A DNA stretch of 64,000 nt from contig CACITE010000001.1 of the NCBI GenBank assembly GCA_902589505.1, positions 62,001-126,000 of the forward strand. The letters run 5' to 3'. Of this stretch, positions 10,520 to 53,043 are shown in pieces. This DNA is from an uncultured Pelagibacteraceae bacterium (GTDB lineage Bacteria; Pseudomonadota; Alphaproteobacteria; Pelagibacterales; Pelagibacteraceae). The first letter of the stretch is position 1, and every line of letters begins with the position of its first letter. A program made the position numbers and the translations under genes. A model generated the notes under the pieces. That model saw only the letters and a program-made list of their open reading frames with translations, ran no database searches and was not told where the DNA came from.

Positions 10520-10527
10520 TAAGAAAA

Positions 10528-11433: not shown

Positions 11434-11485
11434 AGATTAAAATATTTATATATTAAATTAAAAATACATTCATAACAATTCATAT

Positions 11486-12772: not shown

Positions 12773-12774
12773 GT

Positions 12775-13782
12775 ATGCAAGCTTTAGTTTATACAGACAC
12801 ACAAAAATTAATTTACAGAGAAGAAAAAAATCCAAAACTAATAAATGGAGAAAGCATAGTCAAAGTTTCTGCTTCAGGAATTTGTGGATCTGACATGCAT
12901 GCTTATCATGGAAAAGATGAAAGGAGAATTCCTCCATTAATTTTAGGCCATGAAGTAAGTGGTATTATCGACAAAGGAAAAGAAATTGGAAAAAAAGTAG
13001 TTCTTAATCCATTAATTACATGCGGATCATGTGGCTACTGTAAAAACGGAAGAGAGCATTTATGTAGTAAAAGAATTATTTTGGGAATGAACAAGCCAAT
13101 AGAAAGACAAGGAGGATTTGCTGATTATGTGTCTATTCCTGATAAAAATATATATGAATTACCAAAAAATCTTAATATGCATGAAGCACCTATAGCCGAA
13201 CCTTGTGCTGTAGCTCTTCACGCAGTCGAGCTTGGTGAAAAGAATATTTATAAAAAAATGGAAGACTGCAAAACATTGATTATAGGTGCTGGCGCTATTG
13301 GTTTACTGTGCGGATTAATTTTATCAAAAATTAAGTATTGTAAAAATATAATTATTGTAGATCCAAATGATAAAAGACTTAAAGAATCCCTAAAATATTT
13401 AGATGCAAATGGGTTCAAACCAGATAGTAAAAAAATAACCAGCGATCACTTTGACTTGGTTTTTGATACTGTAGGGTTAGAGTCGACAAGACAACAGGCT
13501 ATACGTTGTATTAATCCTGGTGGAATTATTATTCATATTGGACTTACCCAACCAAGTGGGACATTTAATTTTAGAAAAACTACTTTACAGGAGATTACAT
13601 TTATCGGCACTTATTGCTACACAAACAAAGATTTTGAAAAAACGCTTAACATTTTAAACAATAAAAAAATTGGTAGTTTAAAATGGATAGAATATAGAAA
13701 ATTGAAAGAAGGATCGTTAGCATTCAAAGAGATACACAACGGCTCATGCGCCTCCCCAAAAATAATATTATTAAATAGTTAA
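12775..13782 (+). CDS. zinc-dependent medium-chain alcohol dehydrogenase
   Basis: A 335-residue MDR-family dehydrogenase. Catalytic-zinc ligands are in SGICGSDMHAYHG (Cys) and LGHEVSGII (His, Glu). The structural zinc is held by four cysteines in CGSCGYCKNGREHLC near residues 83-97. The nucleotide-binding glycines are IIGAGAIGLLCG near residue 168. Overall it resembles sorbitol, galactitol-1-phosphate or threonine dehydrogenases. It starts two bases after the HisD-like gene, so the two probably act on the same small hydroxylated compound, for instance interconverting isomers as HpsO/HpsP do for dihydroxypropanesulfonate. That substrate is inference. Confidence 0.85.
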   Translation: MQALVYTDTQKLIYREEKNPKLINGESIVKVSASGICGSDMHAYHGKDERRIPPLILGHEVSGIIDKGKEIGKKVVLNPLITCGSCGYCKNGREHLCSKRIILGMNKPIERQGGFADYVSIPDKNIYELPKNLNMHEAPIAEPCAVALHAVELGEKNIYKKMEDCKTLIIGAGAIGLLCGLILSKIKYCKNIIIVDPNDKRLKESLKYLDANGFKPDSKKITSDHFDLVFDTVGLESTRQQAIRCINPGGIIIHIGLTQPSGTFNFRKTTLQEITFIGTYCYTNKDFEKTLNILNNKKIGSLKWIEYRKLKEGSLAFKEIHNGSCASPKIILLNS

Positions 13783-14976
13783 CTACCTTAAAATATTCAA
13801 AAAAGTTTGTTTTACAGGTTTTATGGTATTTACAAACCTTAATGCAAATTGTCTTGTAAGTTTGGCTGGGAATATATTTGATGTATATAAATTAATTATA
13901 CTATTTGTAGCGAAGTATACTGGTGCTGCCTCACGATGTAATTTATATTGGTACTCATTTAAAGCATCTACTGAACCAATATCAATTCCTTTTTTTACAG
14001 CTTTGTTTATAACATCAATTAAAATTTCAAGACCTCTTAAACCTAAATTAAAACCATGCGCAGTGACAGGGTGCATTCCCACTGCAGCATCACCTATTAA
14101 AGCAAAGCGATTTGAAACAAATTTTTTTGCGTAAGTTGTGATCATAGGATAAGTATAGCGTTTTCCTACCAATCTCATTTTTCCAAAAAAATTATTAAAA
14201 TTATTTTCCATTTCTTTATTAAATTCTTTTTTTTTCATTTTCATTAAATTGTTAGTCAGATCTTTGTTTGCGGTCGTAACAATTCCAGATTGATTTTTAA
14301 CATACGGTAAAATGGCTTGCGTTTGGTTGTAACGAAAAAATTCATATGCAATATTTTTATGAGTTTTTTCGTGTCGCATTCGACAAACAATCATATTTTT
14401 ATTAAAGTTACGAGTAAATGTAGAGTGACCCATTTTTGAGCGTATTTTCGAAAATCTACTATCTGCAGCAACAACTAAAGAAGTTTGAATTTTTTTTCTA
14501 TTAGATAAAATTATTTCTGCATATTGGTTTTCTATATTAATTGACAAGCATTCAGTTTTATCAATTAAGCTTATATTAGAAATTTTTTTCATTTTTTTAT
14601 AAAGATTTTTTTTAATTATATAATTAGGTACTAAGTAGCCCAGGTGTTTTTTTTGAATTTCGTTGTGGTCAAAATTTAGGAAATATTTTGAATCTCCGTC
14701 AATAACTCTAGCCTTTTTAATTAAAGATACTATATTTTTAGGTATGGAGCTCCACACACCTAGTTTTTTTAAAACATTTACTGAGTTATGAGTTAAGGCA
14801 ATTTCTCTGCCATCTATTTTTGGATTAGCAATAATTTTTCTTGGTAATTTGTCTATAACAGCTACTTTGAGTCTGGTTTTGGAAAATCCACTGGCAAAAG
14901 CGATACCAGTAGGACCAGCGCCAACCACCACAATATCGAATTTAATATTATTTTTAATTTTACTTTTACGAAGCAT
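13783..14976 (-). CDS. UbiH/UbiF/Coq6-family FAD monooxygenase
   Basis: A 397-residue flavoprotein of the ubiquinone-biosynthesis hydroxylase family. It shows the FAD-binding VVGAGPTGIAFASGF near residue 17, REIALTHNSVNVLKKLG near residue 56, the DG-type region VVAADSRFSKIR near residue 157, and the second FAD motif RFALIGDAAVGMHPVTAHGFNLGLRG near residue 290, which is the UbiH/UbiF signature. It hydroxylates the aromatic ring of a ubiquinone precursor; which carbon cannot be told from sequence. It is convergent with the zinc dehydrogenase and stands alone upstream of the ccm genes. Confidence 0.85.
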   Translation of the reverse strand: MLRKSKIKNNIKFDIVVVGAGPTGIAFASGFSKTRLKVAVIDKLPRKIIANPKIDGREIALTHNSVNVLKKLGVWSSIPKNIVSLIKKARVIDGDSKYFLNFDHNEIQKKHLGYLVPNYIIKKNLYKKMKKISNISLIDKTECLSINIENQYAEIILSNRKKIQTSLVVAADSRFSKIRSKMGHSTFTRNFNKNMIVCRMRHEKTHKNIAYEFFRYNQTQAILPYVKNQSGIVTTANKDLTNNLMKMKKKEFNKEMENNFNNFFGKMRLVGKRYTYPMITTYAKKFVSNRFALIGDAAVGMHPVTAHGFNLGLRGLEILIDVINKAVKKGIDIGSVDALNEYQYKLHREAAPVYFATNSIINLYTSNIFPAKLTRQFALRFVNTIKPVKQTFLNILR

Positions 14977-15087
14977 ATTTTTGATTATATTTTATACATA
15001 TTTATATTTTAATCTATTAGGTTTATGCACAATTGTTGAGACAATTTAACTCTTGTATTTTTCAGCAATCTTTAGGATAGTCAAGCA

Positions 15088-15315
15088 ATGATGGATTTAG
15101 ATTTTTTTATTTTAGGTGGATACGGACAATTCGTATGGCCAGCATTCATATTTTCTTTTGTAAGTTGTGCTTTTCTCTTTTTAAAAGTAAAAAGAGAGCT
15201 ACAAAAACAAGAACAAAAATATTTAATTAAATATGGAGAATTTGAAACTGAAAATATCGAAACTGTCGAAAAAACCCAAATCTCGAAAAAAGTTTTATCT
15301 GGTAGCTCAATTTAA
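15088..15315 (+). CDS. ccmD: heme exporter protein CcmD
   Basis: A 75-residue single-helix membrane protein. The N-terminal FILGGYGQFVWPAFIFSFV is the CcmD pattern, followed by a charged juxtamembrane stretch KVKRELQKQEQ. CcmD links CcmC, CcmE and the CcmAB ATPase during heme loading onto CcmE. It is longer than many CcmD proteins, with an extra 35-residue polar tail. It is first of a ccmD-ccmE-ccmC group. Two adjacent ATG codons (15088 and 15091) could both serve as start. Confidence 0.85.
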   Translation: MMDLDFFILGGYGQFVWPAFIFSFVSCAFLFLKVKRELQKQEQKYLIKYGEFETENIETVEKTQISKKVLSGSSI

Positions 15316-15339
15316 GTTATTCATACAATAAAAAACCTA

Positions 15340-15768
15340 ATGTTAAGTAAAAAAGTTAAAACAAGAATTTTTTTCTTGTCTTTATCAGTGTTGGTTTTAA
15401 TTGCTGTGATTTTTTTTATACTTAAATCATTAGAAGAAAATGTGGTTTATTTTTTTTCTCCTTCAGAAATTTATAATAAAACAAATATCTCTTTTAACAA
15501 AAAAATTAGAGTAGGCGGATTGGTTAAAATTAATTCGATAAACAAGAAAGATTCATCTATAAATTTTATTATCACTGATCTTAAAAAAGAAATTATTGTC
15601 ACATATAAAGGTTTAGTTCCTAATTTATTCTCCGAAGGAAAAGGAGTAGTTGCTGAAGGAAAATTAAAAGATAGGAAATATTTTATTGCTGATAAGATTT
15701 TGGCCAAACACGATGAAAATTACATGCCACCAGAGGTTAGTAAAGCTTTGGAGAAATCTGACAATTAG
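15340..15768 (+). CDS. ccmE: cytochrome c-type biogenesis heme chaperone CcmE
   Basis: A 142-residue heme chaperone anchored by one N-terminal membrane helix (residues 8-28) with a periplasmic OB-fold domain. The covalent heme-attachment His lies in [11 protein letters not shown] near residue 127, the standard HDExYxPPE motif. [11 protein letters not shown] near residue 55 is also typical. It receives heme from CcmC-CcmD and passes it to CcmF-CcmH. The gene is 24 bases after ccmD and 15 bases before ccmC. Confidence 0.93.
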
Positions 15769-15783
15769 GTAAAATACATTTAA

Positions 15784-16494
15784 ATGTTTAAAAATTTTTT
15801 TCCAAATAAAATTCTTTCAATAACTTATACAAAAATAAATGGACTCGTTTCTTTACTCATTGCTGTTTTAGTTGTTGGACTTATTTATTCATTAATAATA
15901 TCTCCTCCAGATTATATACAGGGAGATTCTGTAAGAATTATGTATGTTCATGTGCCTTCGTCCTTTCTTGCCTTGGGCTGTTTTGGATTTATAGGAGTAG
16001 CTTCTATCTTGAATTTAATTTTTAAAATTAAATTCATGCCACTTCTATCAAAAAGTTTAGCTCCCGCTGGATGCATTTTTGCAATAATTTCAATTATAAC
16101 TGGTTCTCTTTGGGGAAAACCTACCTGGGGAATATGGTGGGTTTGGGATGCAAGATTAACTTCAATGTTAATCTTATTAATCTTTTATATTGCATATATT
16201 TTAACTTGGAAACTTGTTAAGAGTTTTGAAAAAGCAAACAAAATATCTTCAATCATAGGAATCGTTGGTTTACTTAATATACCTGTAATAAAATATTCAG
16301 TAGATTGGTGGAATACTCTTCATCAACCATCAAGCATTACATTAACCTCAGCACCTACTATTCATTACACGATGCTAATTCCTTTATTAATAATGTTTTT
16401 AGGAATGTTGATCTATACATTAATCATTTTTTTAATGCAGTATAAAATTGAGGTAATAAAGTTTAAATTAAAAAAGAAAAAATATTTAAAATAA
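15784..16494 (+). CDS. ccmC: heme exporter protein CcmC
   Basis: A 236-residue protein with six membrane helices and the tryptophan-rich WWD heme-handling motif in WGIWWVWDARLTS near residue 120. Flanking His residues are in YVHVPSS near residue 58 and LHQPSS near residue 180. CcmC loads heme onto CcmE. It ends four bases from the convergent ccmH gene. The partner ABC exporter genes ccmA and ccmB are not in this window. Confidence 0.93.
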   Translation: MFKNFFPNKILSITYTKINGLVSLLIAVLVVGLIYSLIISPPDYIQGDSVRIMYVHVPSSFLALGCFGFIGVASILNLIFKIKFMPLLSKSLAPAGCIFAIISIITGSLWGKPTWGIWWVWDARLTSMLILLIFYIAYILTWKLVKSFEKANKISSIIGIVGLLNIPVIKYSVDWWNTLHQPSSITLTSAPTIHYTMLIPLLIMFLGMLIYTLIIFLMQYKIEVIKFKLKKKKYLK

Positions 16495-40929: not shown

Positions 40930-41904
40930 TTAGCTTAAACTTTTTAAATCTTCTTCAACCATATTAGCCACAAGATCATCAAAGGTTATTTTTGGTTCCC
41001 ATTTTAAAAGTTTTTTTGCTTTAGAGTAGTCGGCTAATAAGGTGTCAACTTCGGCAGGCCTTATAAGGTTTTTGTCTATAATAATGTGATCTTTGTAATT
41101 TAGACCTACGTGATCAAAGGCTTTTTTTGCAAAATCTTCTACAGAATTTTGTTTTCCTGTTCCTATTACAAAATCATCAGCCTTGTCTTGTTGTAGCATT
41201 AACCACATTGCGTTCACATAATCTTTCGCGTGGCCCCAGTCTCTTCTAGATTTCATGTTTCCTAATTTTATTTTTTTTTGCAAGCCTTTTTTAATTCTTG
41301 CTACTCCATGTGAAATTTTTCTGGTTACAAATTCAAATCCTCTTCGTGGAGATTCGTGGTTAAATAATATTCCATTAGATGCGTGTAAATTATAGGCTTC
41401 TCTGTAATTTTTTACTAAATGATAACCTGTTACTTTCGATATGCCATAGGCTGATCGTGGATGAAAAGGAGTGTTTTCATTTTGATGAGGTTGTTTGACT
41501 TTACCAAACATTTCTGATGAAGCTGCAAAATAAAATTTTACTTTCTTATCTGCAAATTCTTTTACAGCAGATAACATGTAATGTGTTCCATTTATATTCA
41601 TGCTAAAAGTTGAAAATTCATCTTCAAAAGAGTAGCCCACATAACTTTGTGCTCCTAAATGATATATTTCATCAGGTTTTATTTTTAAAACAATATTAAA
41701 TATACGAGCATAACTTTCTAGAGAGCCTGAATGTAAGGTAATATCGTTTAATATTTTTCTAATTCTCCAAAGTCTATGGGTTTCATCTTCCAAAGCTACT
41801 CTTCTCACTATTCCATGAACTTCGTAACCTTTGGATAAGAGTAATTCTGCAAGATACGATCCATCTTGGCCTGTTATACCAGTTATGAGAGCAACTTTTG
41901 ACAT
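40930..41904 (-). CDS. gmd: GDP-mannose 4,6-dehydratase
   Basis: A 324-residue extended SDR. ALITGITGQDGSYLAELLLSK at the start is the Gmd signature, with HGIVRR near residue 31, YHLGAQSYVGYSFE near residue 80, and the catalytic triad region FAASSEMFGK and HPRSAYGISKVTGY. NHESPRRGFEFVTRKI near residue 183 and RDWGHAKDYVNAMWLMLQ near residue 220 are conserved. It makes GDP-4-keto-6-deoxymannose, the branch point for fucose, rhamnose, perosamine and colitose. No fcl or per gene is beside it, but a 3-dehydratase-type gene is 1 kb away at 42993. Confidence 0.94.
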   Translation of the reverse strand: MSKVALITGITGQDGSYLAELLLSKGYEVHGIVRRVALEDETHRLWRIRKILNDITLHSGSLESYARIFNIVLKIKPDEIYHLGAQSYVGYSFEDEFSTFSMNINGTHYMLSAVKEFADKKVKFYFAASSEMFGKVKQPHQNENTPFHPRSAYGISKVTGYHLVKNYREAYNLHASNGILFNHESPRRGFEFVTRKISHGVARIKKGLQKKIKLGNMKSRRDWGHAKDYVNAMWLMLQQDKADDFVIGTGKQNSVEDFAKKAFDHVGLNYKDHIIIDKNLIRPAEVDTLLADYSKAKKLLKWEPKITFDDLVANMVEEDLKSLS

Positions 41905-41956
41905 TATTTAATGTTCTTATAAAAAAAGGACATATATTACAATTTGTTTTTAACTA

Positions 41957-42871
41957 TTAATTTTTATCATTAAGTAATTTACACCATTTTTCAAAATGAG
42001 GTTGGTAATAAAAATCATAAGCATTTTTACCAATCGGTTGAACAACTGGAAAGCTAGGCTCAGCTTCTAGTATTCTAGGGACTTTTAATGCTTCTGCCAT
42101 TGGATAGGCAACTGATTGATTACCGATGAAAAATTTACAACTTTTTATTACTCTAGCCATATCTAAATAATCTTTGCAATCATAAATTTCTAAATTTTTA
42201 ACATCTTTTTTTAAATCTTCATACTCGTCTTTTGTTCCAATAAAAATTAAATTATTATAATTTTGAAGAAATTTATAATTAATAAATTGGTTTCTATGTC
42301 TAAATGTTCTGTGTATAACAATTTTATTTTTAATTATATCGTGTGGTTCAACATCTAAATACGGTTCAGCCAAATCAACTTGTATGCCAGCAATATGGAA
42401 GTACCACCTTGGTGAATTGAAATGTATATTAACTGGTAGTTCTCTAAAAATATCAAAATTAATGTCAATTTTTTGATTATTATATTTTTCTACTTTATGA
42501 ATAAATTTCTGTTTTTTCATTAAAGGCAAAAAAAGATTTAACATTCTGTCGTCAATGAAAACATATCCCGCAGGATGTTTATAATACTCCAAGAGCATTT
42601 TTTTATTTGCTTGTATATAAAAATGACATTCATGATTCTTTGCTAGTTCTTTTATAACTGGCAAAGCATATATAAGATCGCCAAGGTGGCCAGAATGAAG
42701 AAAAGTTATTTCTTTTTTATTTTTGATTTTGTTTTCAATTTCATACAAATAAGATTTATATTTATACTCAAACTCTTCGACAGTTTTTTGAATTGCATTT
42801 AGCTGTTTTAATCTTAAATATTTTTTATTATCAAATATTTTATAATAGTATTTTAAGATATTAAATTTCAT
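41957..42871 (-). CDS. putative GT9-like glycosyltransferase
   Basis: A 304-residue protein with weak resemblance to the GT9 (heptosyltransferase) fold. TFLHSGHLGDLIYALPVIKELA near residue 54 is like the GT9 N-terminal motif, and FFIGNQSVAYPMAEALKVPRI near residue 250 occupies the place of the donor-binding GNDTGxxHxAAA motif. Key residues of true heptosyltransferases are only partly kept. It lies among surface-sugar genes, downstream of a gap shared with the divergent aminotransferase-fold gene. The acceptor and donor are unknown. Confidence 0.6.
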   Translation of the reverse strand: MKFNILKYYYKIFDNKKYLRLKQLNAIQKTVEEFEYKYKSYLYEIENKIKNKKEITFLHSGHLGDLIYALPVIKELAKNHECHFYIQANKKMLLEYYKHPAGYVFIDDRMLNLFLPLMKKQKFIHKVEKYNNQKIDINFDIFRELPVNIHFNSPRWYFHIAGIQVDLAEPYLDVEPHDIIKNKIVIHRTFRHRNQFINYKFLQNYNNLIFIGTKDEYEDLKKDVKNLEIYDCKDYLDMARVIKSCKFFIGNQSVAYPMAEALKVPRILEAEPSFPVVQPIGKNAYDFYYQPHFEKWCKLLNDKN

Positions 42872-42992
42872 TCATACATACCTAGCATAGAAATTAATTT
42901 TTTTCAGCTTTTACCTTGAAAGTTAAATATAAATTAAATTAATTTAGCTTATCAATTTTGAATTATTAATATATAAATCAAATAAGTTTAAA

Positions 42993-44249
42993 ATGAGTTT
43001 ATCATCTGAATTAAATAAGGCTTTAAAAATTAAAGAAACAAAGAGATCAAAGCATCTTTTTCCTCTAAAAGATTCTACTTTTAGAAGCAAAGATTTGATT
43101 CAAGGCATCAAAGTAATTTTAAGCAAAGACGTAACCATGTCAAAAATAACAAAAAAATTTGAAAAAACTTTTACCAAAAAAATAAAAAGTAAATATTCAT
43201 TGATGGTAAACTCAGGCTCTTCTGCAAATCTTTTAGCAATTCAATGTCTAACTAATCCGTACAGAAAAAATAGATTAAAAAAGGGAGATAAAGTTTTAAT
43301 TCCTTCGATATGTTGGTCAACATCTTTATGGCCAATAATTCAAAGTGGATTAAAACCAGTTTTTGTAGATGTTGATAAAAAAAATTTAAATATAAATTTA
43401 GATGACTTAAAAAAGAAAATTTCAAAAAAAACAAAAGCTTTAATGCTCGTTCATGTATTAGGTGTTTCAACAGACATGGAAAAATTAACAAAAATATTAA
43501 GCAAAAATAAAATTTTTCTTATTGAAGACACATGTGAAAGTATTGGAGCTAAATTTAAAAATAAATTTTTAGGAACTTATGGAGATTTTTCTACTTTCTC
43601 TTTTTACTTTTCGCATCAAATATCATCTGTTGAGGGTGGCATGATATGCTGCAAAAATAGAGAAGATGAAAACATAATTAAATCTTTAAGATCCCACGGA
43701 TGGGCCAAAGGTTTATCCAATCAAAAAAAAATCGAAAATAAATTCAAAAAAATAAACAAAAAATTTTTATTTATAAACTCTGGATTTAATTTCAGACCGA
43801 CAGATATTCAAGCTGCAATTGGTTTAAGCCAATTTAATTCATTAGACTATTTTATTAAAATAAAAAAAATAAATAGAAAAAAAATAATTAATAGACTGGT
43901 ATTAGATCAGAGGTGGAATAATCAAGTAAATTTTATTGAAAATGATAGCAAAGTCAAACCTTCTTGGTTTGGCTTAACTATGCTGCTGAACAAAAAATAT
44001 AAAAACAAGAAAAATAAAATATTTGATAAAATGGATAAATTGGGTTTAGAAAATAGACCCATTATAAGCGGCAATTTTCTGAAGCAACCTGCTGTAAAAA
44101 AATATAATCTCCTTCAGAGAAGCAAAGATTTTCCTAATGCAAATTATATCCATGAACATGGTTTATTTGTTGGGTTAAAAAATCAAGTATTAAAAAAGAC
44201 GGAAGTTGATAAATTTGCAAATATTTTTTTCAATTCTTTCAATATTTAA
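42993..44249 (+). CDS. DegT/DnrJ-fold sugar 3-dehydratase (ColD/RfbH-like)
   Basis: A 418-residue PLP enzyme of the sugar aminotransferase fold. VNSGSSANLLAIQCL near residue 72, CWSTSLWPIIQSGLKPVFVDVD near residue 107 and FLIEDTCESIGAKF near residue 174 are typical. At the PLP Lys position the motif reads YFSHQISSVEGG, with His at residue 208 instead of Lys. That swap marks the 3-dehydratases ColD and RfbH (E1), which remove the 3-hydroxyl of a sugar rather than transaminate it. The gmd gene nearby makes the ColD substrate, so a GDP-3,6-dideoxy sugar is a reasonable inference. No RfbI-like reductase is visible. Confidence 0.82.
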   Translation: MSLSSELNKALKIKETKRSKHLFPLKDSTFRSKDLIQGIKVILSKDVTMSKITKKFEKTFTKKIKSKYSLMVNSGSSANLLAIQCLTNPYRKNRLKKGDKVLIPSICWSTSLWPIIQSGLKPVFVDVDKKNLNINLDDLKKKISKKTKALMLVHVLGVSTDMEKLTKILSKNKIFLIEDTCESIGAKFKNKFLGTYGDFSTFSFYFSHQISSVEGGMICCKNREDENIIKSLRSHGWAKGLSNQKKIENKFKKINKKFLFINSGFNFRPTDIQAAIGLSQFNSLDYFIKIKKINRKKIINRLVLDQRWNNQVNFIENDSKVKPSWFGLTMLLNKKYKNKKNKIFDKMDKLGLENRPIISGNFLKQPAVKKYNLLQRSKDFPNANYIHEHGLFVGLKNQVLKKTEVDKFANIFFNSFNI

Positions 44250-44271
44250 TTATCTTAAAAATTTATTTTTT

Positions 44272-44865
44272 TTATTTAAAAATAATCTTTTCCACTGCGT
44301 TGCAATATTTAGAAAATCTATTTCTTTGAAAAGGAAAATCTGCTGTAAGTTTATCTAAATTTTTTTTGATAGAAGTTTTTATTTCTACAACTGAGATATG
44401 ATCTCTCTCACTAATATTATTAGAGAATAGTTTGTAATTGATATTATTATCTATAGATACTCGCACATCGTCTATTATAAAGTATTCTCTTTCATAGGTA
44501 ACATAAAGACACGGTTTGCATAAACCATACTGTGAGTCTAAAATTCCTTTTGTATTAAAATAATCAAATTTGTTTTTATTAATTATTTTTCGAGTTTTAA
44601 ATCGTCCTTCAACACTTGAAATCTTAACCTCCAGGTAAATTTTAGTATCTTTCGTGTTAGGGTAATTTCTGATACGAATTTTTTTTCTTGGAGTTAACCC
44701 CTCAATAGAGTCGTTATACATTTCATAATTTTGATTATCAAAATAAAGGCTTTGAATTTTTCTTGGTTGATAAATTGGTTTTATTGTTTTATTTGCAAGA
44801 AAGCTTTTAAAATCAATTATTTTATTACTATCTATTGATAGTTTTTCTTCTATTCTATAGCTCAT
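44272..44865 (-). CDS. VTC-domain polyphosphate polymerase-like protein
   Basis: A 197-residue protein that is one VTC domain, the tunnel-fold domain that makes polyphosphate in the yeast VTC complex. SLYFDNQNYEMYND near residue 43, RKKIRIRNYP near residue 62 (basic tunnel residues), YLEVKISSVEGRFKTRK near residue 76 and VVEIKTS near residue 164 with a conserved acidic-Lys pair are present. Its start overlaps the end of the CotH-like gene by 11 bases, and the DUF4956 gene leads the run. This combination is a recurrent bacterial cassette. Polyphosphate synthesis here is inferred from the family. Confidence 0.82.
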   Translation of the reverse strand: MSYRIEEKLSIDSNKIIDFKSFLANKTIKPIYQPRKIQSLYFDNQNYEMYNDSIEGLTPRKKIRIRNYPNTKDTKIYLEVKISSVEGRFKTRKIINKNKFDYFNTKGILDSQYGLCKPCLYVTYEREYFIIDDVRVSIDNNINYKLFSNNISERDHISVVEIKTSIKKNLDKLTADFPFQRNRFSKYCNAVEKIIFK

Positions 44866-47218
44866 TTTCTATAACTATTTTAGATACAGTGTCGGAAATT
44901 TTTTTATTTTTATAATTTTTACAATCTATATTTTTTATTTCTAAAAACCCACCATAAAATTCTTGTTTTTTCTTGTAGGCTGAAACACATGTTTTTAAAT
45001 TTTTTAAATAAGCATTATTTATTTTTGTTACCGAGCTATCTTTTGAAGCAATACCAAAATTTGAGTTTTCAGCAAAAATCTCGTTTAATACTAAAAATGA
45101 TTTTTCACCTACAGATAAAGCCTTATCACCACAGTTAATTAAATTTAATTTATTAAGTTTATAGTTACCCGAAGAAAAGTCGACACAGTCATTTCCTGAA
45201 GAAGAAATATTTATTTTTTCGATTTGTACATCAGAAAAATCGATATCCAACCCGTCACTTAGTGAATTTTTAATATTAATTTCAGCTAAAGATCCCTCAA
45301 CGTTTATAAGATTAATTGTATCTTCGCAGCTTGATTCGGTAGCTTTAATAGAGATATTTTTTACTTTTAAGTTTATTAATGATAAGCACCCAGTAAGACC
45401 ATTGATATCAATCGGATAGTTATTTGGAAAAACTTGTTCACTTGAATCATTTTCATTTTTAGCTATTTCGTGACCAAAAAAATTGATAGTCAGATTTTCA
45501 AGTGTGCCATTTATAATATATACCCTTGAACCTGATTTTTTCTGATAAATATTTAATAAATTTTCATCATTATTGTCGATCTCAATTCCATCATCATAAT
45601 ATATTGTACTTTTTTTAAAATTTAATTTGTTATGATTTTCATGTTCAATTATATTTTTAAAATCTAGATTATCACCTAGGTATTGATATACTTTTTTATC
45701 TAAAATAAACTCTCCTTCTAAGAGCTCCAAAAGATTTTCTTTAGAAAAAGAATAATCTTCGCATTTTTCAAGGTAAATTTTGCATCTTTGGAGTTTTCCG
45801 TTTCTTTGATTATGTTTAACTAAAAAAACAGTGGGATCAATTTGATTCAAGGTATCATTAAATGTATTCAATATATTATTTATTGGCTCAAAGTTGTTAT
45901 GTTTCACTATATCTTTATCTAAATTTAAATAATTTTCTTTAATAATATTAAGGTTAAATAAAATTTTATTAATTTTTGAATTTAGATCATCTCTGGATAA
46001 ATTAATTCCAGATAACAAAATATTATTATGGATTTTGTTTAAATTTAAGTTGACAAGTTTTTTTTCAAGCAAATCAAAAGATTGATAAAAGTACTTAGAA
46101 ATTGGCATTCGTTGAGTGGAAGTTGTGGTTGTTGGAGACTGTCTATCAATCTCTATGTTTGAGTCATAATTAATAGGCTCAAAATATTTTTCTATAGAAT
46201 TCCAATAAAATTTTCTATTACTGACACTAAGAGCATGCTGGCTATTTGTTGCCTGCATTAGCAGATTGTAAACATCTAATTTTAATATATTTTCTGGATT
46301 GAAGAATCCTAATAAAGAATTATCTAAGTCATAATCAAAGAAATTAAAATTGTTTTTTTGATCTTGAAATTTATTTGAATAATATAAGTATATTAAATTT
46401 AAATTACTTAAAGCCTTATAAGACATCGTTTTATGATTTTCACTTTTGAAAATTATTGTAGAATTTGATTGTTTCGTTAACATTGTTTTAATACTTTTAC
46501 TTCTCAATTCTGGAGTTCCTATACTAGCATTGCTTATTTGATTATCAGGTATGTTATCTACAAGTCTAAAAAAAAATCGTTGATCCCCTTCTAATATAGG
46601 TCCTTCTCTTCTATTATTGTATTCCAGCAATTCCTTTGCTGCTTTTTCTTGCATCATCATTATAGTTTCACTTTGGTTTATTCGTGCATTCACATTAAAG
46701 GTTCTTGGTGATATATAATTTAAACTTCTCAATATTTCTGACTGTAAAATTTCATCTACAACTACCCCCCTTGTGCCTGGCAGATATAATTTAAATTTTG
46801 TTATACCCTTTATATGACCCTCATCTAAGTGGACATCTAAACTTTGTATAAGAGAGTTGCCTTGCAATTTAATATGATCTTTAGCATCTCCGCTATGTCT
46901 AACTTGTCCTTTAAAAGAACATTGAATATTATTTTCATAAGTTACTAATATGTTTGCATCAAATCTTCTTTTATATTTTTCTGGTGTAAATCTGAAATTA
47001 TTAGTTAAGATTCTGATACTGTTTACAGTCCATCTTCTATAATTGTTCATATCAATCTCAATTTTCTTAATTTTAAGTTTGTAAATTTCCTCAATATATT
47101 TTTGGTCGCTTTTACTATCGCAAAGATGATTGCTATGTTCAGATGATATATTTTCTTTAGAAAAAGAACTATTATTTATAATTAAAAAAATTATTAAGAA
47201 AAATAAATTTTTTCTCAT
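44855..47218 (-). CDS. secreted CotH-like protein with C-terminal beta-helix
   Basis: A 787-residue exported protein with a signal peptide (residues 1-20). Residues 90-480 resemble the CotH kinase-like fold: QVRHSGDAKDHIKL near residue 105, the acidic FFDYDLDNSLLG near residue 300, LMQATNSQHALSVSNRKFYW near residue 320 and EPINYDSNIEID near residue 345, matching CotH Asp positions loosely. The catalytic set is divergent, so kinase activity is uncertain. Residues 570-770 are built of short repeats (INISSSGNDCVDFSSG, LNLINCGDKALSVGE) typical of a right-handed parallel beta-helix, suggesting binding to a surface glycan. It lies between DUF4956 and VTC genes. Confidence 0.7.
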   Translation of the reverse strand: MRKNLFFLIIFLIINNSSFSKENISSEHSNHLCDSKSDQKYIEEIYKLKIKKIEIDMNNYRRWTVNSIRILTNNFRFTPEKYKRRFDANILVTYENNIQCSFKGQVRHSGDAKDHIKLQGNSLIQSLDVHLDEGHIKGITKFKLYLPGTRGVVVDEILQSEILRSLNYISPRTFNVNARINQSETIMMMQEKAAKELLEYNNRREGPILEGDQRFFFRLVDNIPDNQISNASIGTPELRSKSIKTMLTKQSNSTIIFKSENHKTMSYKALSNLNLIYLYYSNKFQDQKNNFNFFDYDLDNSLLGFFNPENILKLDVYNLLMQATNSQHALSVSNRKFYWNSIEKYFEPINYDSNIEIDRQSPTTTTSTQRMPISKYFYQSFDLLEKKLVNLNLNKIHNNILLSGINLSRDDLNSKINKILFNLNIIKENYLNLDKDIVKHNNFEPINNILNTFNDTLNQIDPTVFLVKHNQRNGKLQRCKIYLEKCEDYSFSKENLLELLEGEFILDKKVYQYLGDNLDFKNIIEHENHNKLNFKKSTIYYDDGIEIDNNDENLLNIYQKKSGSRVYIINGTLENLTINFFGHEIAKNENDSSEQVFPNNYPIDINGLTGCLSLINLKVKNISIKATESSCEDTINLINVEGSLAEINIKNSLSDGLDIDFSDVQIEKINISSSGNDCVDFSSGNYKLNKLNLINCGDKALSVGEKSFLVLNEIFAENSNFGIASKDSSVTKINNAYLKNLKTCVSAYKKKQEFYGGFLEIKNIDCKNYKNKKISDTVSKIVIENEL

Positions 47219-47224
47219 TAAAAA

Positions 47225-47842
47225 CTAAACTAAATTAATATTTATCTTATTAACATTTTTCATTCCTTCGATTTTCTTCTTGAAAGAGTTAAGTTGATTT
47301 TTGTTATCAAATGTTAATCTGTAGATAAATTCACCTTGAGCTGTATCGCTATAAAGACTTATTAAGTTATTATCATTCTCTATTACATCGATTTTTTCTT
47401 TAGCAAAAACTTCTATGGAGTTAACTGAGGTACCTTCGTTAAAGGAGACGTTATAAAAAGATTTACCAAATTTTTGATAAATTTTTTGGACTATCTTTAC
47501 TGCTACTATAATTATAATAGTACATAAAATAAGTTGTATCGCCCATTTTGTTCGAACACTTGTTGCAATTCCGATTGTTATTAAATCGAAATACATAATT
47601 AATTCTAATGCGCTTTTAACAGGGTGTCTAAATCTAACAATTGATAATGCTCCGATCATACCTAGAGATAAAGCAATGTTACCCGCAATTGTTTTTGTTA
47701 TTACATAAGTTATTACTGGTAGTATCATGAAGGCGACAGTTTGGGCGTGTGATTTAGCCCAGGCCTGACCAGTAATAGTCAAAGCAAACCTAAGCAATAA
47801 TCCACCAAATATTAGAATTCCTAATGAAGTAAGTTCATCCAT
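47225..47842 (-). CDS. DUF4956 membrane protein
   Basis: A 205-residue protein with four to five membrane helices in its first 115 residues and a soluble C-terminal domain. ISLGMIGALSIVRFRHPVKSALELIMYFDLITIGIA-type sequence (the SIVRFRHPVK segment near residue 72) is the DUF4956 hallmark. The C-terminal 80 residues look like an alpha/beta sensory or ferredoxin-like domain. The family recurs next to VTC and CotH genes in many bacteria, suggesting one system. It leads the cassette, with a six-base gap to the CotH-like gene. Function unknown. Confidence 0.82.
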   Translation of the reverse strand: MDELTSLGILIFGGLLLRFALTITGQAWAKSHAQTVAFMILPVITYVITKTIAGNIALSLGMIGALSIVRFRHPVKSALELIMYFDLITIGIATSVRTKWAIQLILCTIIIIVAVKIVQKIYQKFGKSFYNVSFNEGTSVNSIEVFAKEKIDVIENDNNLISLYSDTAQGEFIYRLTFDNKNQLNSFKKKIEGMKNVNKININLV

Positions 47843-47919
47843 AATAATATTTCTATAATCTTTTTAATCCAATTTCAAAGAAATTTGACTCATTTCTTAA
47901 TTTCATAACCTAATTCAAA

Positions 47920-47947
47920 TTGATTTGAGCAAACTCTAGGTTATACT
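47920..47947 (+). promoter_or_regulatory. promoter of the tRNA-Met gene
   Basis: TTGATT (47920-47925) and TATACT (47942-47947) are spaced by 16 bases and lie about 50 bases upstream of the tRNA. Both boxes match well for this AT-rich DNA, and the position suits a stable RNA gene. Confidence 0.5.
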
Positions 47948-47995
47948 GAGCATTGAACTAAAAATAAAATATATTATAAATCAACAAAGACTGAT

Positions 47996-48072
47996 GGCGG
48001 GATAGCTCAGTTGGTTAGAGCGTTGGACTCATAAGCCAAAGGTCGCTGGTTCGACTCCAGCTCCCGCTACCA
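47996..48072 (+). tRNA. tRNA-Met (CAT), elongator
   Basis: A 77-base tRNA with encoded CCA. The acceptor stem pairs GGCGGGA with TCCCGCT (one G-U at the end), the D arm is GCTC...GAGC, the T arm is GCTGG TTCGACT CCAGC, and the anticodon CAT is at 48030-48032 in the loop CTCATAA. The anticodon stem has one A-G mismatch at 31-39. G2-C71 and C3-G70 fit elongator Met; there is no C1-A72 mismatch or GC-rich anticodon stem of an initiator. A lysidine-type Ile2 tRNA cannot be fully excluded. Confidence 0.93.
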
Positions 48073-48083
48073 TTTGTGCAACA

Positions 48084-49208
48084 GTGATTAAAAAATTTTT
48101 ACAAAAAATATTTAAAATAGCTTCCTACGGAATTTTTTCTTTATTTTACGGTAAAATTCAAAAAACTATAGATGCGGATTCAGATAATAGAATAAAAGTT
48201 AAAATTGTTAATATCGATAAAGATTTTGCTTATAAAATTTATAATATTATTGATGGAAGATTATATACTGACCGTATACAGGACACAGCAGTATTGCTTG
48301 ACAATAAAGTTGTAAAAGGGCCTTCCTTTCAACTAAGACGTAAACACAACTTAAAAATATATAATTCTAGAACGGAAGAAAATATCGTTTTTTCAAAAGG
48401 AACTCCAAGAGTATTAAAAAATTTAAATGGCACAGTATTATCTTTGTTAACAGGAGGAGGTGGAAATAACAATTATTGGCACTGGCTGTTTGATGTTTTG
48501 CCGCGAATAGGTTTGTTTAATAAAACAGGAAACCTAGATTCAGTAGATTATTTTTTACTTCCAGATCACGTAAAAAAATTCCAATTCGAGACTTTAGATC
48601 TTTTGGATATTCCTAATCATAAAAGATTATCTAGTGAAAAATTTAGACATATAAAAGCAAAAAAATTAATAATTACAGATCATCCTGTCGTTACTAGCGG
48701 TGACGCAACAAAAGATATTATGAATATTCCAAAATGGATTTCTGATTGGTTAAAAGATAATTTTATTAAGAGCAAAATATCATCAAATAATAATATTAAA
48801 AAAATTTATATAGACAGAAGTCTTAAAAACTCAGAAAAGTCAGTACAAAGATTTATAGAAAATGAAGATGAAGTAAAAAATTATTTATTAAAAAAAAATT
48901 TTACTGCAATAAAACTTCACGAAATAAAATTTATTGATCAAGTTAATTTATTCAATAATGCTGAATTTATTGTAGGATTACACGGCGGAGGTTTTGCTAA
49001 TCTAGCATTTTGTAAACCTGGAACAAGAGTTGTAGAATTGAAGAGCTTGGATGCAGGAACCCCAATTGAAAATTTAGCAATAAAAAATAAATTGATATAC
49101 AATTCCATAGCTGTTGAAGCTCGACAGGAAAAAAAAATTGATTATCCAAACCAACAAGGTAGTATTAAAATACCAATAACAAATTTAATCAAACTATTAG
49201 AGATTTAA
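48084..49208 (+). CDS. glycosyltransferase family 61 (DUF563) protein
   Basis: A 374-residue protein of the GT61/DUF563 family. GGGGNNNYWHWLFDVLPRIGLF near residue 130 and IVGLHGGGFANLAFCKPGTRVVE near residue 297 are the two defining regions; the second lies in the GT-B nucleotide-sugar site. It begins with GTG at 48084, only 12 bases after the tRNA, so tRNA and gene may share a transcript. In bacteria these genes sit in capsule or LPS clusters. Substrate unknown. Confidence 0.8.
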   Translation: MIKKFLQKIFKIASYGIFSLFYGKIQKTIDADSDNRIKVKIVNIDKDFAYKIYNIIDGRLYTDRIQDTAVLLDNKVVKGPSFQLRRKHNLKIYNSRTEENIVFSKGTPRVLKNLNGTVLSLLTGGGGNNNYWHWLFDVLPRIGLFNKTGNLDSVDYFLLPDHVKKFQFETLDLLDIPNHKRLSSEKFRHIKAKKLIITDHPVVTSGDATKDIMNIPKWISDWLKDNFIKSKISSNNNIKKIYIDRSLKNSEKSVQRFIENEDEVKNYLLKKNFTAIKLHEIKFIDQVNLFNNAEFIVGLHGGGFANLAFCKPGTRVVELKSLDAGTPIENLAIKNKLIYNSIAVEARQEKKIDYPNQQGSIKIPITNLIKLLEI

Positions 49209-49213
49209 AAATA

Positions 49214-50038
49214 ATGAAAAATTTAAATATGTTTTGTATTAGTTTGGAACCCAAACATTACAAGTTAATTAGATCATTAGAATATGCGGCGGTCGGTTTA
49301 GGTGAAAAAAAATTTGATAATAGTTGGTTTGCCGACAAAACAGGTAATAATATTTCACATAAAAATAAAAATTATGGTGAATATACATTTCACTATTGGA
49401 TTTGGAAAAATTACTTAGACAAACTTGATGATAATAAGTGGATTGGATTTTGTCAGTATAGAAAGTTTTGGAGCTTAAAAAACTACGATAAAAATGATAT
49501 TAATATTAATAATTTAAACAATTTAGTTTTAAAAGAAATACCATCAGAATTTGAAAAATACGACTCAATACTTGGGAAACCTATGTACGTAAATCAATGG
49601 AGAACTATGAAATTTTTAAAAACCGCAAAAAAAATTTTTTTAAAAAATCCTTTTTTGCTTTTTAACAAAGAAAAAAGAAATCTCAATTTTCATTTTGACT
49701 GGATGCATGGTTTTAATAATTTAAGTAATGCTATTGATTTACTTGACGAAGAAAACAGAAATGATTTTAGCCAGTTTGTTAACAAGGAAGTTTCATTTAA
49801 TCCCCACAATATGATAATATGTAAATCAAAATTTAAATTAAAAAAATATTACGAAGTTTTATTTCCTTGGTTAGAAAAATGTGAGAAATTGTTTGGTTTT
49901 GACAATCTCAAAGGGTACGGAAAGATAAGAATTTACGGCTTTTTAGCCGAAAGATTTATGTCCTATTGGTTTAAAAAAAATACAAAATACACAACTTTGC
50001 CAATAATTTTTTACGACATAAGAAAAGATATAAATTAA
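49214..50038 (+). CDS. DUF4422 glycosyltransferase-like protein
   Basis: A 274-residue protein with the DUF4422 core, found in exopolysaccharide and LPS gene clusters. YGEYTFHYWIWKNYLDKLDDN near residue 55 and WIGFCQYRKFWSL near residue 78 match the family's core, and HNMIICKSKFKLKKYYEVLFPWL near residue 197 and RIYGFLAERFMSYWF near residue 240 match its second half. It starts five bases after the GT61 gene and probably acts in the same polymer. Donor and acceptor are unknown. Confidence 0.75.
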   Translation: MKNLNMFCISLEPKHYKLIRSLEYAAVGLGEKKFDNSWFADKTGNNISHKNKNYGEYTFHYWIWKNYLDKLDDNKWIGFCQYRKFWSLKNYDKNDININNLNNLVLKEIPSEFEKYDSILGKPMYVNQWRTMKFLKTAKKIFLKNPFLLFNKEKRNLNFHFDWMHGFNNLSNAIDLLDEENRNDFSQFVNKEVSFNPHNMIICKSKFKLKKYYEVLFPWLEKCEKLFGFDNLKGYGKIRIYGFLAERFMSYWFKKNTKYTTLPIIFYDIRKDIN

Positions 50039-51067
50039 TTATTTTTTTAAGCCAAGTCTGTTGATGTATAGTTTTTTTGAAATACTAGAATAAAAGTTTT
50101 GATTTCTAATATACCAATCAAAAGTTTCTGACAACCCAGCGCTCAAAGATATTTTAGATTTCCATCCCAATTTCTTAAATATTTTTTTATTATCAAGAGC
50201 ATATCTAAAGTCGTGTCCAGGTCTATCTTTAACGAATTTAATTTTAACTTTTTTTCCAACAGCAATAGATTTTCTTTTTGCAATATTCAATAATTTTTTT
50301 GCAATATATTTATTTTCAAAAATCTGGTTTGAGCCTACATTGTAACTTTCACCTATTTTACCTTTATTAAATATTTTTAATAATGCTTCACAGTGATCTA
50401 AAACATGAATCCACTCTCTATTATTTTTTCCTATTCCATAAATTGGTAAAGGTTTATTATTTAAAATGTTGTAAATAAGTTTTGGAATTAACTTTTCTGG
50501 AAATTGGTTAGGACCATAATTATTGCAACAATTAGATATTATAACTGGAAGTTTGTAAGTTCTTACGAAAGATTTAACTAAATGATCGGCGCCTGCCTTT
50601 GTAGCTGAATATGGCGAACTAGGATTGTATGAAGAATTTTCATCAGATTTTTTTCCTTTTTTAATGTCACCGTAAACCTCATCTGTAGATACATGAACTA
50701 ATTTTATTTTTTTGTTTTTTTTTGAATATTTTTTTAAAGCTTCAAGTAAATTAAAAACTCCTAATATATTACTTTTTATAAAATCATTAGGATTGTCAAT
50801 AGATCGATCAACATGAGTTTCTGCCGCAAGATTAAAAACACCTATAGGTTTATATTTTTTTATAATATTGTAAATTTGAAGTTGATTATTTATGTCTTGT
50901 TTAAAAAATTTATATTTTTTATTTTTGGCTACCATTTTAAGATTATATGGATTTGCAGAATAGCTCTGATTATCGATATTTATTATAAAATAATTTTTTT
51001 TAAGCAAAAATTTGATTAGGTTGCTTCCTATGAATCCAGAACCACCAGTAACTATAAATTTTTTCAT
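50039..51067 (-). CDS. rfbB: dTDP-glucose 4,6-dehydratase
   Basis: A 342-residue extended SDR. IVTGGSGFIGSNLIKFLLKK near residue 4, GVFNLAAETHVDRSIDNP near residue 76, HVSTDEVYGDI near residue 125, and the catalytic YSATKAGADHLV near residue 155 define RmlB, with NNYGPNQFPEKLIP near residue 185. It makes dTDP-4-keto-6-deoxyglucose, the substrate of the RfbC homologue at 26625. Start and stop abut neighbouring genes. rmlA is missing from the window, so the dTDP-glucose synthase must be elsewhere. Confidence 0.93.
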   Translation of the reverse strand: MKKFIVTGGSGFIGSNLIKFLLKKNYFIINIDNQSYSANPYNLKMVAKNKKYKFFKQDINNQLQIYNIIKKYKPIGVFNLAAETHVDRSIDNPNDFIKSNILGVFNLLEALKKYSKKNKKIKLVHVSTDEVYGDIKKGKKSDENSSYNPSSPYSATKAGADHLVKSFVRTYKLPVIISNCCNNYGPNQFPEKLIPKLIYNILNNKPLPIYGIGKNNREWIHVLDHCEALLKIFNKGKIGESYNVGSNQIFENKYIAKKLLNIAKRKSIAVGKKVKIKFVKDRPGHDFRYALDNKKIFKKLGWKSKISLSAGLSETFDWYIRNQNFYSSISKKLYINRLGLKK

Positions 51068-51147
51068 AATTATTTACAAAAAAAATCTGATTTAATAAAT
51101 TAAAAATGTTAAAAGAATTAGAGTATAAAATCAATTATGTTTAAATA

Positions 51148-51981
51148 ATGTCAGTTAAAGATATCACCATAGTAATAGCCTCATTTAAAAGTGAAAAAAA
51201 AATTAGAAATTGTTTAAATTCAATTGATAAGAAGTACACAGTTATAAATGTCGAAAACTCCGCAAACCAGGATTATAAAAGAAAAATAGAAGAAGAGTTT
51301 AAAAATGTTTATTGTATATTAACAGGTGAAAACTTTGGATACGGTAAGGCAAATAATATCGGGCTTAATAAAGTTAAAACCAAATACGCCTTAATACTAA
51401 ATCCGGATACAGAACTTTTTCCAGATACTTTAGATAGATTTATTAAACTAGCAAATGAAAAAAATGATTTTTCAATAATAGGACCTGGAATAGTTGAAAC
51501 TAAGAAAAATTTAATATCAGACGAAAAAGTTAGAGCAGTGAATGCCGTTAAAGGATACGCTATGTTTTTAAATTTATCAGAATTCAAAGATATAGGTTTC
51601 TTTGACGAAAACTTTTTTTTCTTTTTGGAAGAAATTGATTTATGTAAAAGACTAACAAAAAAAAATAAAAAAATTTATCTTTCGCCTAATATTAAAGTGT
51701 ACCATGAAGGCGGAAAATCACATGACGATTCTTTTAATTATCAGATGGAGTTATCTAGAAATTGGCATTGGATGTGGTCTACTTTTTATTATAACAAAAA
51801 ATACAGAGGCTTTATAAATTCTTTTTTTGTTGTTTTGCCAAAGTTATTTTCAGCCATCATTAAAGTTATTATTTATTTTTTAATACTTAATAAAGTAAAA
51901 AGAAAAATTTATTTTCAAAGATTATCTGGTTTAATTAATGCTATACTTGGAAAAAATTCATGGTATCGTCCAAAAGTCTGA
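51148..51981 (+). CDS. family 2 glycosyltransferase, rhamnosyltransferase-like
   Basis: A 277-residue GT-A enzyme. TIVIASFKSEKKIRNCLNSI at the start, GYGKANNIGLNKVKTKYALILNPDTEL near residue 66 with the donor-binding NPD, and FFDENFFFFLEEIDLCKRL near residue 152 (EEIDLxxR) are the WbbL-type rhamnosyltransferase pattern. A hydrophobic segment near residues 230-250 may attach it to the membrane. With RmlB- and RmlC-type genes in the window a deoxyhexose donor is likely, but not shown. Confidence 0.82.
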   Translation: MSVKDITIVIASFKSEKKIRNCLNSIDKKYTVINVENSANQDYKRKIEEEFKNVYCILTGENFGYGKANNIGLNKVKTKYALILNPDTELFPDTLDRFIKLANEKNDFSIIGPGIVETKKNLISDEKVRAVNAVKGYAMFLNLSEFKDIGFFDENFFFFLEEIDLCKRLTKKNKKIYLSPNIKVYHEGGKSHDDSFNYQMELSRNWHWMWSTFYYNKKYRGFINSFFVVLPKLFSAIIKVIIYFLILNKVKRKIYFQRLSGLINAILGKNSWYRPKV

Positions 51982-52026
51982 GATTAATTATTGATTTATA
52001 GAAATTAAAAATATACAAAACCTCAA

Positions 52027-53043
52027 ATGAATAAACCCTCGCAAAAAATTTTAGTTACAGGTGTAGCTGGCTTTTTAGGTTCTCATTTAGCTGAAAAATT
52101 ATCCACTTTAAATCACAAAGTTATTGGCGTTGATAATATGTCAGGAGGTTATGAAGACAATGTTCCTAAAAATGTTGAATTTTATAATATGGATTGCTGC
52201 GATCTCAAAAAAATGACCGATATTATGAAAAATGTAGAAGTTGTTTATCACTGTGCAGCAACTGCACACGAAGGTTTGTCAGTTTTTTCTCCTTACGAAA
52301 TAACAAAAAATAATTATTTAGCATCCGTTTCAGTTTTTACAGCCGCTATTCAAAATAAAGTTAAAAGAATTATATTTTGTTCATCCATGGCAAGATATGG
52401 AGATCAAAAAACACCCTTTACAGAAGATATGAAACCTAAACCAGTAGATCCATACGCAATATCAAAAGTTGCTGCAGAAAATGTTTTAATGAACCTTTGT
52501 GAATTAAATAATATTGAGTGGGTCATAGCGGTACCTCATAATATTATTGGACCCAGACAAAAATATAACGATCCTTTTAGAAACGTTGTATCAATAATGA
52601 TAAATAGAATGTTACAAAATAAAGCACCAATTATTTATGGTGATGGTGAACAAAAAAGGTGTTTTTCTTATATAGATGATTGTCTTAGTTGTTTAATACC
52701 AATGTTAGATCAGAAAAATTTAAATAAACAAATTATAAATATAGGACCTGATGAAGAGTTTGTTACTATTAACAAAGTTTCCGAGATCTGTTCAAATATT
52801 ACGAGAAGCAATTTAAAACCAATATACAAAAAAGACCGCCCAAGAGAAGTTAAGCATGCTACCTGTTCTGCCAACAAAGCGAGAAAACTATTAAATTATT
52901 CGACAACAACTGACTTAAAAAGTGGAATTATGAAAACTTTTGAATATATTAAACAAAGAGGAGTGAGACCGTTTGATTATAATATAAATTTAGAAATCGA
53001 AAATGAACTCACGCCTGAAACTTGGGTTAAAAAAGAATTTTAG
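52027..53043 (+). CDS. NAD-dependent nucleotide-sugar epimerase/dehydratase
   Basis: A 338-residue extended SDR. VTGVAGFLGSHLAEKLSTL near residue 11, VVYHCAATAHEGLS near residue 72, FCSSMARYGDQKTPF near residue 118, and YAISKVAAENVL near residue 147 (Tyr-xxx-Lys) are clear. It resembles UDP-glucose or UDP-galacturonate 4-epimerases and the WcaG group. The reaction is not decidable from sequence. It closes the plus-strand surface-sugar run and overlaps the convergent apt gene by four bases. Confidence 0.82.
   Translation: MNKPSQKILVTGVAGFLGSHLAEKLSTLNHKVIGVDNMSGGYEDNVPKNVEFYNMDCCDLKKMTDIMKNVEVVYHCAATAHEGLSVFSPYEITKNNYLASVSVFTAAIQNKVKRIIFCSSMARYGDQKTPFTEDMKPKPVDPYAISKVAAENVLMNLCELNNIEWVIAVPHNIIGPRQKYNDPFRNVVSIMINRMLQNKAPIIYGDGEQKRCFSYIDDCLSCLIPMLDQKNLNKQIINIGPDEEFVTINKVSEICSNITRSNLKPIYKKDRPREVKHATCSANKARKLLNYSTTTDLKSGIMKTFEYIKQRGVRPFDYNINLEIENELTPETWVKKEF

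Follow-up and report, generated by a model that had tools for sequence, protein, structure and literature searches.

How might an enzyme that has left the cytoplasm be supplied with phosphate? Secreted kinases such as CotH act where, to our knowledge, no supply of adenosine triphosphate (ATP) is known. This question is raised by a three-gene cassette in a 64,000-nucleotide stretch of DNA (hereafter the window; contig CACITE010000001.1, positions 62,001 to 126,000 of the forward strand) from an uncultured member of the Pelagibacteraceae (SAR11), which include some of the most numerous bacteria in the sea. The assembly (GCA_902589505.1) comprises 925 kb in 25 contigs and is 76% complete. Three closely packed minus-strand open reading frames (ORFs) encode a DUF4956 membrane protein of 205 amino acids (47225..47842), a secreted protein of 787 amino acids that joins a CotH-like kinase fold to a right-handed parallel beta-helix (44855..47218), and a stand-alone VTC (triphosphate tunnel) domain of 197 amino acids (44272..44865). 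The ORF listing gives a 6-base gap between the first two genes and an 11-base overlap between the 3′ end of the CotH-like gene and the VTC gene, which confirms the three overlapping or abutting genes described in an initial annotation made from the sequence alone. That annotation also proposed a coupled system that makes or senses polyphosphate at the membrane and modifies or anchors a surface glycan or protein. This is still the best reading, given that the VTC tunnel is kept and the three genes are co-conserved, although its mechanism is our inference. Specifically, we tentatively regard the cassette as an envelope phosphate-transfer module, in which the VTC protein would make polyphosphate, DUF4956 would serve as its membrane partner, and the secreted enzyme would modify the cell surface, a proposal that we consider quite possible if short of probable.

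Is the VTC protein equipped as a polymerase? The Pfam VTC profile matches the window protein with an E-value of 9.3e-27 and is covered from position 2 to 233 of its 235 positions, and the VTC profile also matches yeast Vtc4 (3g3q) with an E-value of 4e-12. The window protein retains tunnel residues K8, R64, R66, K81, K90, R126, R135, E161, S185 and K186, the first nine of which presumably correspond to Vtc4 residues K200, R264, R266, K281, K294, R361, R373, E426 and S457. Among 82-84 scored sequences, no tested tunnel residue differs in more than one, and the counterpart of Vtc4 Lys458 is a lysine in every one of them. The loss of tunnel residues, a weakness that the initial annotation had envisaged, is not what we find. 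Furthermore, the first position of an R-x-E-x-K motif is arginine in 84/84 sequences. Judged by the register of the motif, which lies outside the Vtc4 alignment, this arginine probably takes the place of the first glutamate in the E-x-E-x-K motif of the hydrolases. Vtc4 lacks the second metal site seen in the hydrolases, and its Lys458 is catalytic (PMC4641920).

The membrane protein is likewise identified by Pfam (DUF4956, E 1.5e-10), as the initial annotation had assigned it. Among 21 of its homologues, nine also match Pfam MgtC (best E 5e-5), matches that belong to the homologues and not to the window protein. In the model (predicted local distance difference test score, pLDDT, 82), the C-terminal part matches ACT/Lrp-type domains. 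Thus, the protein is predicted to be MgtC-like, with a helical membrane part followed by a C-terminal ACT/ferredoxin-like domain.

The middle protein demands more than a family search. Pfam CotH yields no match to the window protein at E<=1, and at this threshold matches 13/20 proteins of a cross-phylum set. When an AlphaFold2 model of the 787-residue protein (pLDDT 84) is submitted to Foldseek, the top matches are the CotH kinase structures 5jda and 5jd9 (Bacillus cereus 5jda; E 9e-8, probability 1.0), and a profile built from N-terminal sequences of long-type homologues finds 5jd9 with an E-value of 6.5e-14. We therefore rejected a Pfam-only view of this protein as misleading, because CotH is missed by Pfam. 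The predicted fold bears out the CotH-like assignment of the initial annotation, and the C-terminal parallel beta-helix is also predicted, with pLDDT above 90 for most of the helix. Two features had been overlooked: a change at the catalytic aspartate and a ladder of charged residues.

A probable signal peptide spans residues about 1-20 (47159..47218; MRKNLFFLIIFLIINNSSFS/KE, assigned by eye, with a helix at residues 2-27 in the model), and alignments and the model place the CotH-like, protein-kinase-like domain at residues about 45-470 (45809..47086). Within this domain G110, N181 and E191 are conserved. HMMER aligns the conserved histidine of the homologues (His328 in the window protein, 46235-46237) with the aspartate of NFDGFVHNY in 5jd9, and the next aspartate (D352, 46163-46165), which is retained, with that of PWD. 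A manual count gives a His-to-Asp spacing of 24 in the window protein and of 23 in 5jd9. The correspondence of His328 to the B. subtilis catalytic aspartate D228 rests on this B. cereus alignment. Among 72 scorable fusions the catalytic position holds histidine in 65 and aspartate in one, and unfused CotH-like proteins divide evenly (Asp 8, His 8), with several of the His-type proteins ending at a contig edge. Given this substitution, it would be unsafe to treat the protein as an ordinary CotH kinase.

The beta-helix occupies residues about 565-787 (44858..45526) and is conserved more strongly than the CotH-like half. Its conserved columns form a charge ladder, about one group per turn (44966..45322), composed of D633, D655/D658/D660, D677/D680, D698-K699/S702/G704/E705, K726-D727 and K750-K751. 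These columns are identical in 62-66 of 64-66 aligned proteins; D633, D655, D658, D677 and D680 reach 66/66, and K726, D727, K750 and K751 nearly do. The D698-K699-S702-G704-E705 block is part of the motif used to select sequences, and 9/74 rows, some of them truncated, were omitted for lacking it. Regardless, these five columns are invariant in A1 and A7, two sets chosen independently of the motif, where the whole ladder is invariant or nearly so. As far as alignments can tell, both the histidine at the presumed catalytic position of 65/72 scorable fusions and the nearly invariant Asp/Lys ladder are new here.

Are the three genes inherited together? Among 198 relatives, the CotH-beta-helix protein is found in 20 genomes, VTC in 19 and DUF4956 in 20. 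These are essentially the same genomes, with the genes contiguous, and the exceptions to the full trio (G005, G017 and G068) lie at contig ends. Co-occurrence across the 198 genomes gives a Fisher p of about 1e-25 (phylogeny ignored). Gene order and strand are constant among SAR11 cassettes. Thus, the co-conservation whose absence would have counted against a functional unit in the initial annotation is present, the trio being there or missing as a whole among the 198 relatives, about 20 of which are carriers. Some SAR11 genomes contain two or three cassettes, which fall into a short and a long type; a tree of DUF4956 and VTC splits the types, with long branches that leave deep placement unsure. 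Multiple different cassettes occur in genomes of roughly 1 Mb, as in G111 (L089, L090, L091), G014 (L082, L083) and G091 (L084, L085). In the SAR11 cassette L151 (8703-10352), the CotH protein retains the histidine and a beta-helix is not detectable. The window genome carries a second CotH-like gene (contig C2, about 67735-69511, minus strand; L105 7736-9512) that is broken into two overlapping frames, has no VTC or DUF4956 gene alongside, and is probably a relic. The CotH-like protein alone found no match as a query against the genome contigs, and a plasmid search with a CotH-beta-helix homologue likewise found none.

Beyond SAR11, a scan for DUF4956 returned at least 80 loci from many phyla, a sample of the total in which L123 duplicates G115. 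In 61 of the 80 listed loci a VTC gene of the same strand lies no more than 4 kb away, and 49 loci include a CotH-beta-helix fusion at any position; many without a fusion are cut by contig ends. By record titles, the listed loci with the fusion represent ten phyla: Bacteroidota, Chloroflexota, Planctomycetota, Omnitrophota, Margulisbacteria, Calditrichota, Myxococcota, Nitrospinota, Acidobacteriota and Pseudomonadota. Two adjoining but distinct genes encode the beta-helix and CotH in L161, and no CotH was found within the visible stretch of some listed loci (e.g. L140, L182 and L183). The initial annotation had singled out the beta-helix arm as a feature that stands out. This view of the fusion as unusual is rejected by the survey, and the finding that the fusion is a common, cross-phylum architecture is new here.

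The cassette also has partners that the initial annotation overlooked. Family-I pyrophosphatase (PF00719) is found in 3/about 171 genomes of the order Pelagibacterales, and all three copies lie inside the cassette: one forms a fusion with the CotH-like protein (G014, L082), one sits between CotH and VTC (G090, L097), and one follows VTC (G115, L098). That all three fall among carriers has a p of about 0.001-0.004, with adjacency not yet counted. The fusion (L082 6122-9109) is a 995-residue protein in which a C-terminal family-I inorganic pyrophosphatase follows the CotH-beta-helix. More cassette-linked pyrophosphatases occur in L149 (SAR11) and in L154, L163 and L167 (Bacteroidota; that of L167 is 2.5 kb away). 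By eye, the stand-alone pyrophosphatase genes encode a hydrophobic, signal-like leader, which is lipoprotein-like in Bacteroidota. A calcineurin-like metallophosphoesterase with a similar leader is detected by profile at 22/80 listed loci from several phyla, in 11 of them no more than 70 bases from the cassette, and all five phosphoesterases tested match Pfam Metallophos. To judge from leaders and linkage, the joining of apparently secreted phosphatases to the cassette is new here. The L144 cluster (9343-16001) unites a canonical CotH (1e-48), an O-antigen-ligase domain, a His-type CotH-beta-helix and a secreted phosphoesterase.

Do the carriers have another way to make polyphosphate? No polyphosphate kinase 2 (PPK2) is found in any Pelagibacterales genome searched. 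PPK1 is present in 35/about 119 genomes of the window's family (a size inferred from the order of genome handles), but in only 1/20 carriers (G103), where 5.9 would be expected. This scarcity has a p of 0.005, which becomes 0.017 when the window's genus is left out, with phylogeny and assembly incompleteness ignored. G068, which has PPK1 and whose DUF4956 fragment lies where a contig ends, was left out of the carrier count. Thus, no PPK is detected in 19/20 SAR11 carriers, a pattern that the initial annotation had also missed.

From the genes, their predicted folds, linkage and conservation, we infer the polymer, the direction of its transport, the phosphate donor and the acceptor as follows. 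Cytoplasmic VTC, with its conserved tunnel, would polymerize polyphosphate from ATP, and the MgtC/ACT-like DUF4956 protein, as its membrane partner, would couple polymerization to export or gate it. Beyond the inner membrane, the secreted CotH-beta-helix protein would receive the chain, its acidic and basic ladder perhaps binding the polyanion with a divalent metal, and the kinase-fold domain, with histidine for the catalytic aspartate, would phosphorylate a glycan or protein of the cell surface. Where present, a secreted pyrophosphatase or metallophosphoesterase may clear the end product or reverse the mark, as its location and linkage suggest. In favor of this reading, cytosolic PPi (pyrophosphate) already has a route in the window genome, which encodes a membrane H+-PPase. 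We place polyphosphate outside the inner membrane because a polymerase-type tunnel, a kinase fold secreted into an ATP-poor compartment, and secreted enzymes for PPi and phosphate esters occur in combination; none of the three is proof singly. The most specific form of this scheme, in which surface phosphorylation is free of ATP and powered by a polyphosphate chain that VTC threads via DUF4956 to the His-type CotH-like enzyme, with pyrophosphatase clearing the residue, is rather doubtful.

Several points weigh against the phosphate-transfer proposal. Loss of the catalytic aspartate could mean that the CotH-like domain is a pseudokinase. Regulation, rather than channel activity, is the better-known role of MgtC-like proteins. 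In the literature searched, no stand-alone bacterial VTC is reported to synthesize polyphosphate. Because SAR11 assemblies are incomplete, the lack of PPK is a soft result, and the absence of PPK1 partly follows genus. The window's own cassette is without a pyrophosphatase or phosphoesterase, so these enzymes must be optional. Finally, deletion of the polyphosphate polymerase gene in Streptococcus intermedius did not lower aggregation, whereas loss of the MgtC/ACT or the CotH gene lowered it in sputum medium (PMC12345266). Therefore, VTC may be dispensable for the aggregation output.

The cassette is enclosed by a surface-glycan island (40930..53043, strand unassigned) that by Pfam encodes GDP-mannose-dehydratase folds, a DegT aminotransferase, GT61, DUF4422, GT2 and an NDP-sugar epimerase. 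The initial annotation's setting among lipopolysaccharide genes is thus right in kind, with sugar-nucleotide and glycosyltransferase-type genes on the flanks. A tRNA-Met gene (47996..48072, plus strand) adjoins the divergently transcribed cassette, as it does in G010, G006 and G106. Several SAR11 cassettes adjoin a tRNA gene of differing kind. As a fixed insertion site tRNA-Met was rejected, since cassettes adjoin various tRNAs or none.

Four other explanations were weighed. The system might be a regulatory or structural module for surface polysaccharide, in which DUF4956 and VTC act as sensors of phosphate or energy state, with a catalytically dead CotH-beta-helix protein as the scaffold for binding or anchoring the glycan. 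The glycan island, the replaced catalytic aspartate, and the O-antigen-ligase domain and canonical CotH of L144 all fit such a module, as does the finding that S. intermedius MgtC/ACT and CotH deletions alter Pel levels with Pel not abolished (PMC12345266). However, conservation is strong at His328, E191, N181 and D352, a pattern not expected of a decaying pseudokinase, the VTC tunnel is conserved, and secreted phosphatases are repeatedly linked, so we consider this alternative unlikely. The same phosphatases, together with the lack of detectable PPK in 19/20 carriers and the periplasmic accumulation of inorganic phosphate (Pi) in SAR11 (PMC7250820), could instead point to a periplasmic store, whereby polyphosphate exported through VTC and DUF4956 is retained by the beta-helix protein, and the pyrophosphatase or phosphoesterase frees Pi for uptake. 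Such a store would need neither a kinase fold nor a glycan-island setting, bacteria are said not to make polyphosphate in the periplasm (PMC7250820), and carriers are only about 20/198 relatives, whereas reports of the Pi buffer concern oceanic SAR11 as a whole. We judge it distinctly unlikely.

The stronger conservation of the beta-helix relative to the CotH-like half raises the prospect that the beta-helix is itself the enzyme, a lyase- or epimerase-like domain whose substrate is an acidic surface glycan, the CotH-like part having a binding or regulatory role. Its best fold matches are PL3 pectate lyases, and weak Pfam Pect-lyase_RHGA_epim matches occur in 8/20 homologues. But the Foldseek E-values of about 0.08 and above (none below 0.05) speak for similarity at the level of fold only, and an enzymatic beta-helix would leave VTC and the secreted pyrophosphatase unexplained, which makes this option quite improbable. 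Pfam PL3 matches 1/20 cross-phylum members (E 0.0025 or 0.047), and PL3 lyase was rejected as a family identity for the beta-helix. Many activities are possible on the tunnel fold (PMC4641920), and VTC could accordingly be a triphosphate hydrolase, or act on another nucleotide, in a system unrelated to polyphosphate. The arginine that begins the E-x-E-x-K-like motif in all 84 sequences and the universally kept Lys458 equivalent render this very improbable.

If the envelope phosphate-transfer proposal is correct, some SAR11 bacteria have a polyphosphate route despite the lack of detectable PPK in nearly all carriers. A co-inherited polyphosphate polymerase, membrane partner and secreted kinase-like enzyme, joined by secreted phosphatases in SAR11 and Bacteroidota, offers a testable answer to the question of a phosphate source where there is no ATP.

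The gene set itself is not recorded here for the first time. CotH, polyphosphate polymerase and DUF4956 form a trio of accessory genes in Gram-positive Pel clusters (PMC7112168, PMC12345266). In S. intermedius (SIR_1592-1594), SIR_1592, which we take to be the DUF4956 gene, has an MgtC membrane domain and an ACT domain, and synteny of the trio was not found outside Pel (PMC12345266). The SAR11 cassette has the identical three families adjacent and the same make-up of its DUF4956 protein, and it contradicts the published view that the trio is confined to Pel loci (PMC12345266). Association with Pel (adjacent pelDEADAFG) was rejected for SAR11, where PelG is found in 0/20 carrier genomes. The SAR11 CotH protein also carries a beta-helix rather than FN3, and the present set has histidine at the catalytic position and pyrophosphatase or phosphoesterase partners.

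Other systems share parts of this arrangement. In Clostridium perfringens NELoc-2, VTC and CotH genes are grouped with genes for small membrane proteins and for a glycosyltransferase resembling chitin synthase, but its architecture and host differ, and its neighbors are described as 'tubulin' (PMC2879425). The beta-helix has the fold of PL3 pectate lyases without a significant sequence or fold E-value. The VTC protein shares conserved tunnel residues with yeast Vtc4 polyphosphate polymerase but lacks the SPX and Vtc membrane domains, with DUF4956 as a separate membrane partner. The secreted Bacillus CotH kinase (5JD9/5JDA; PMC7821199) has the same kinase-like fold, metal-site aspartate and other conserved positions. 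In B. subtilis CotH the catalytic aspartate is D228, and D228Q is a catalytically inactive form (PMC7821199). By contrast, the proteins described here are fused to a beta-helix and place histidine at the D228 equivalent in 65/72 scorable fusions.

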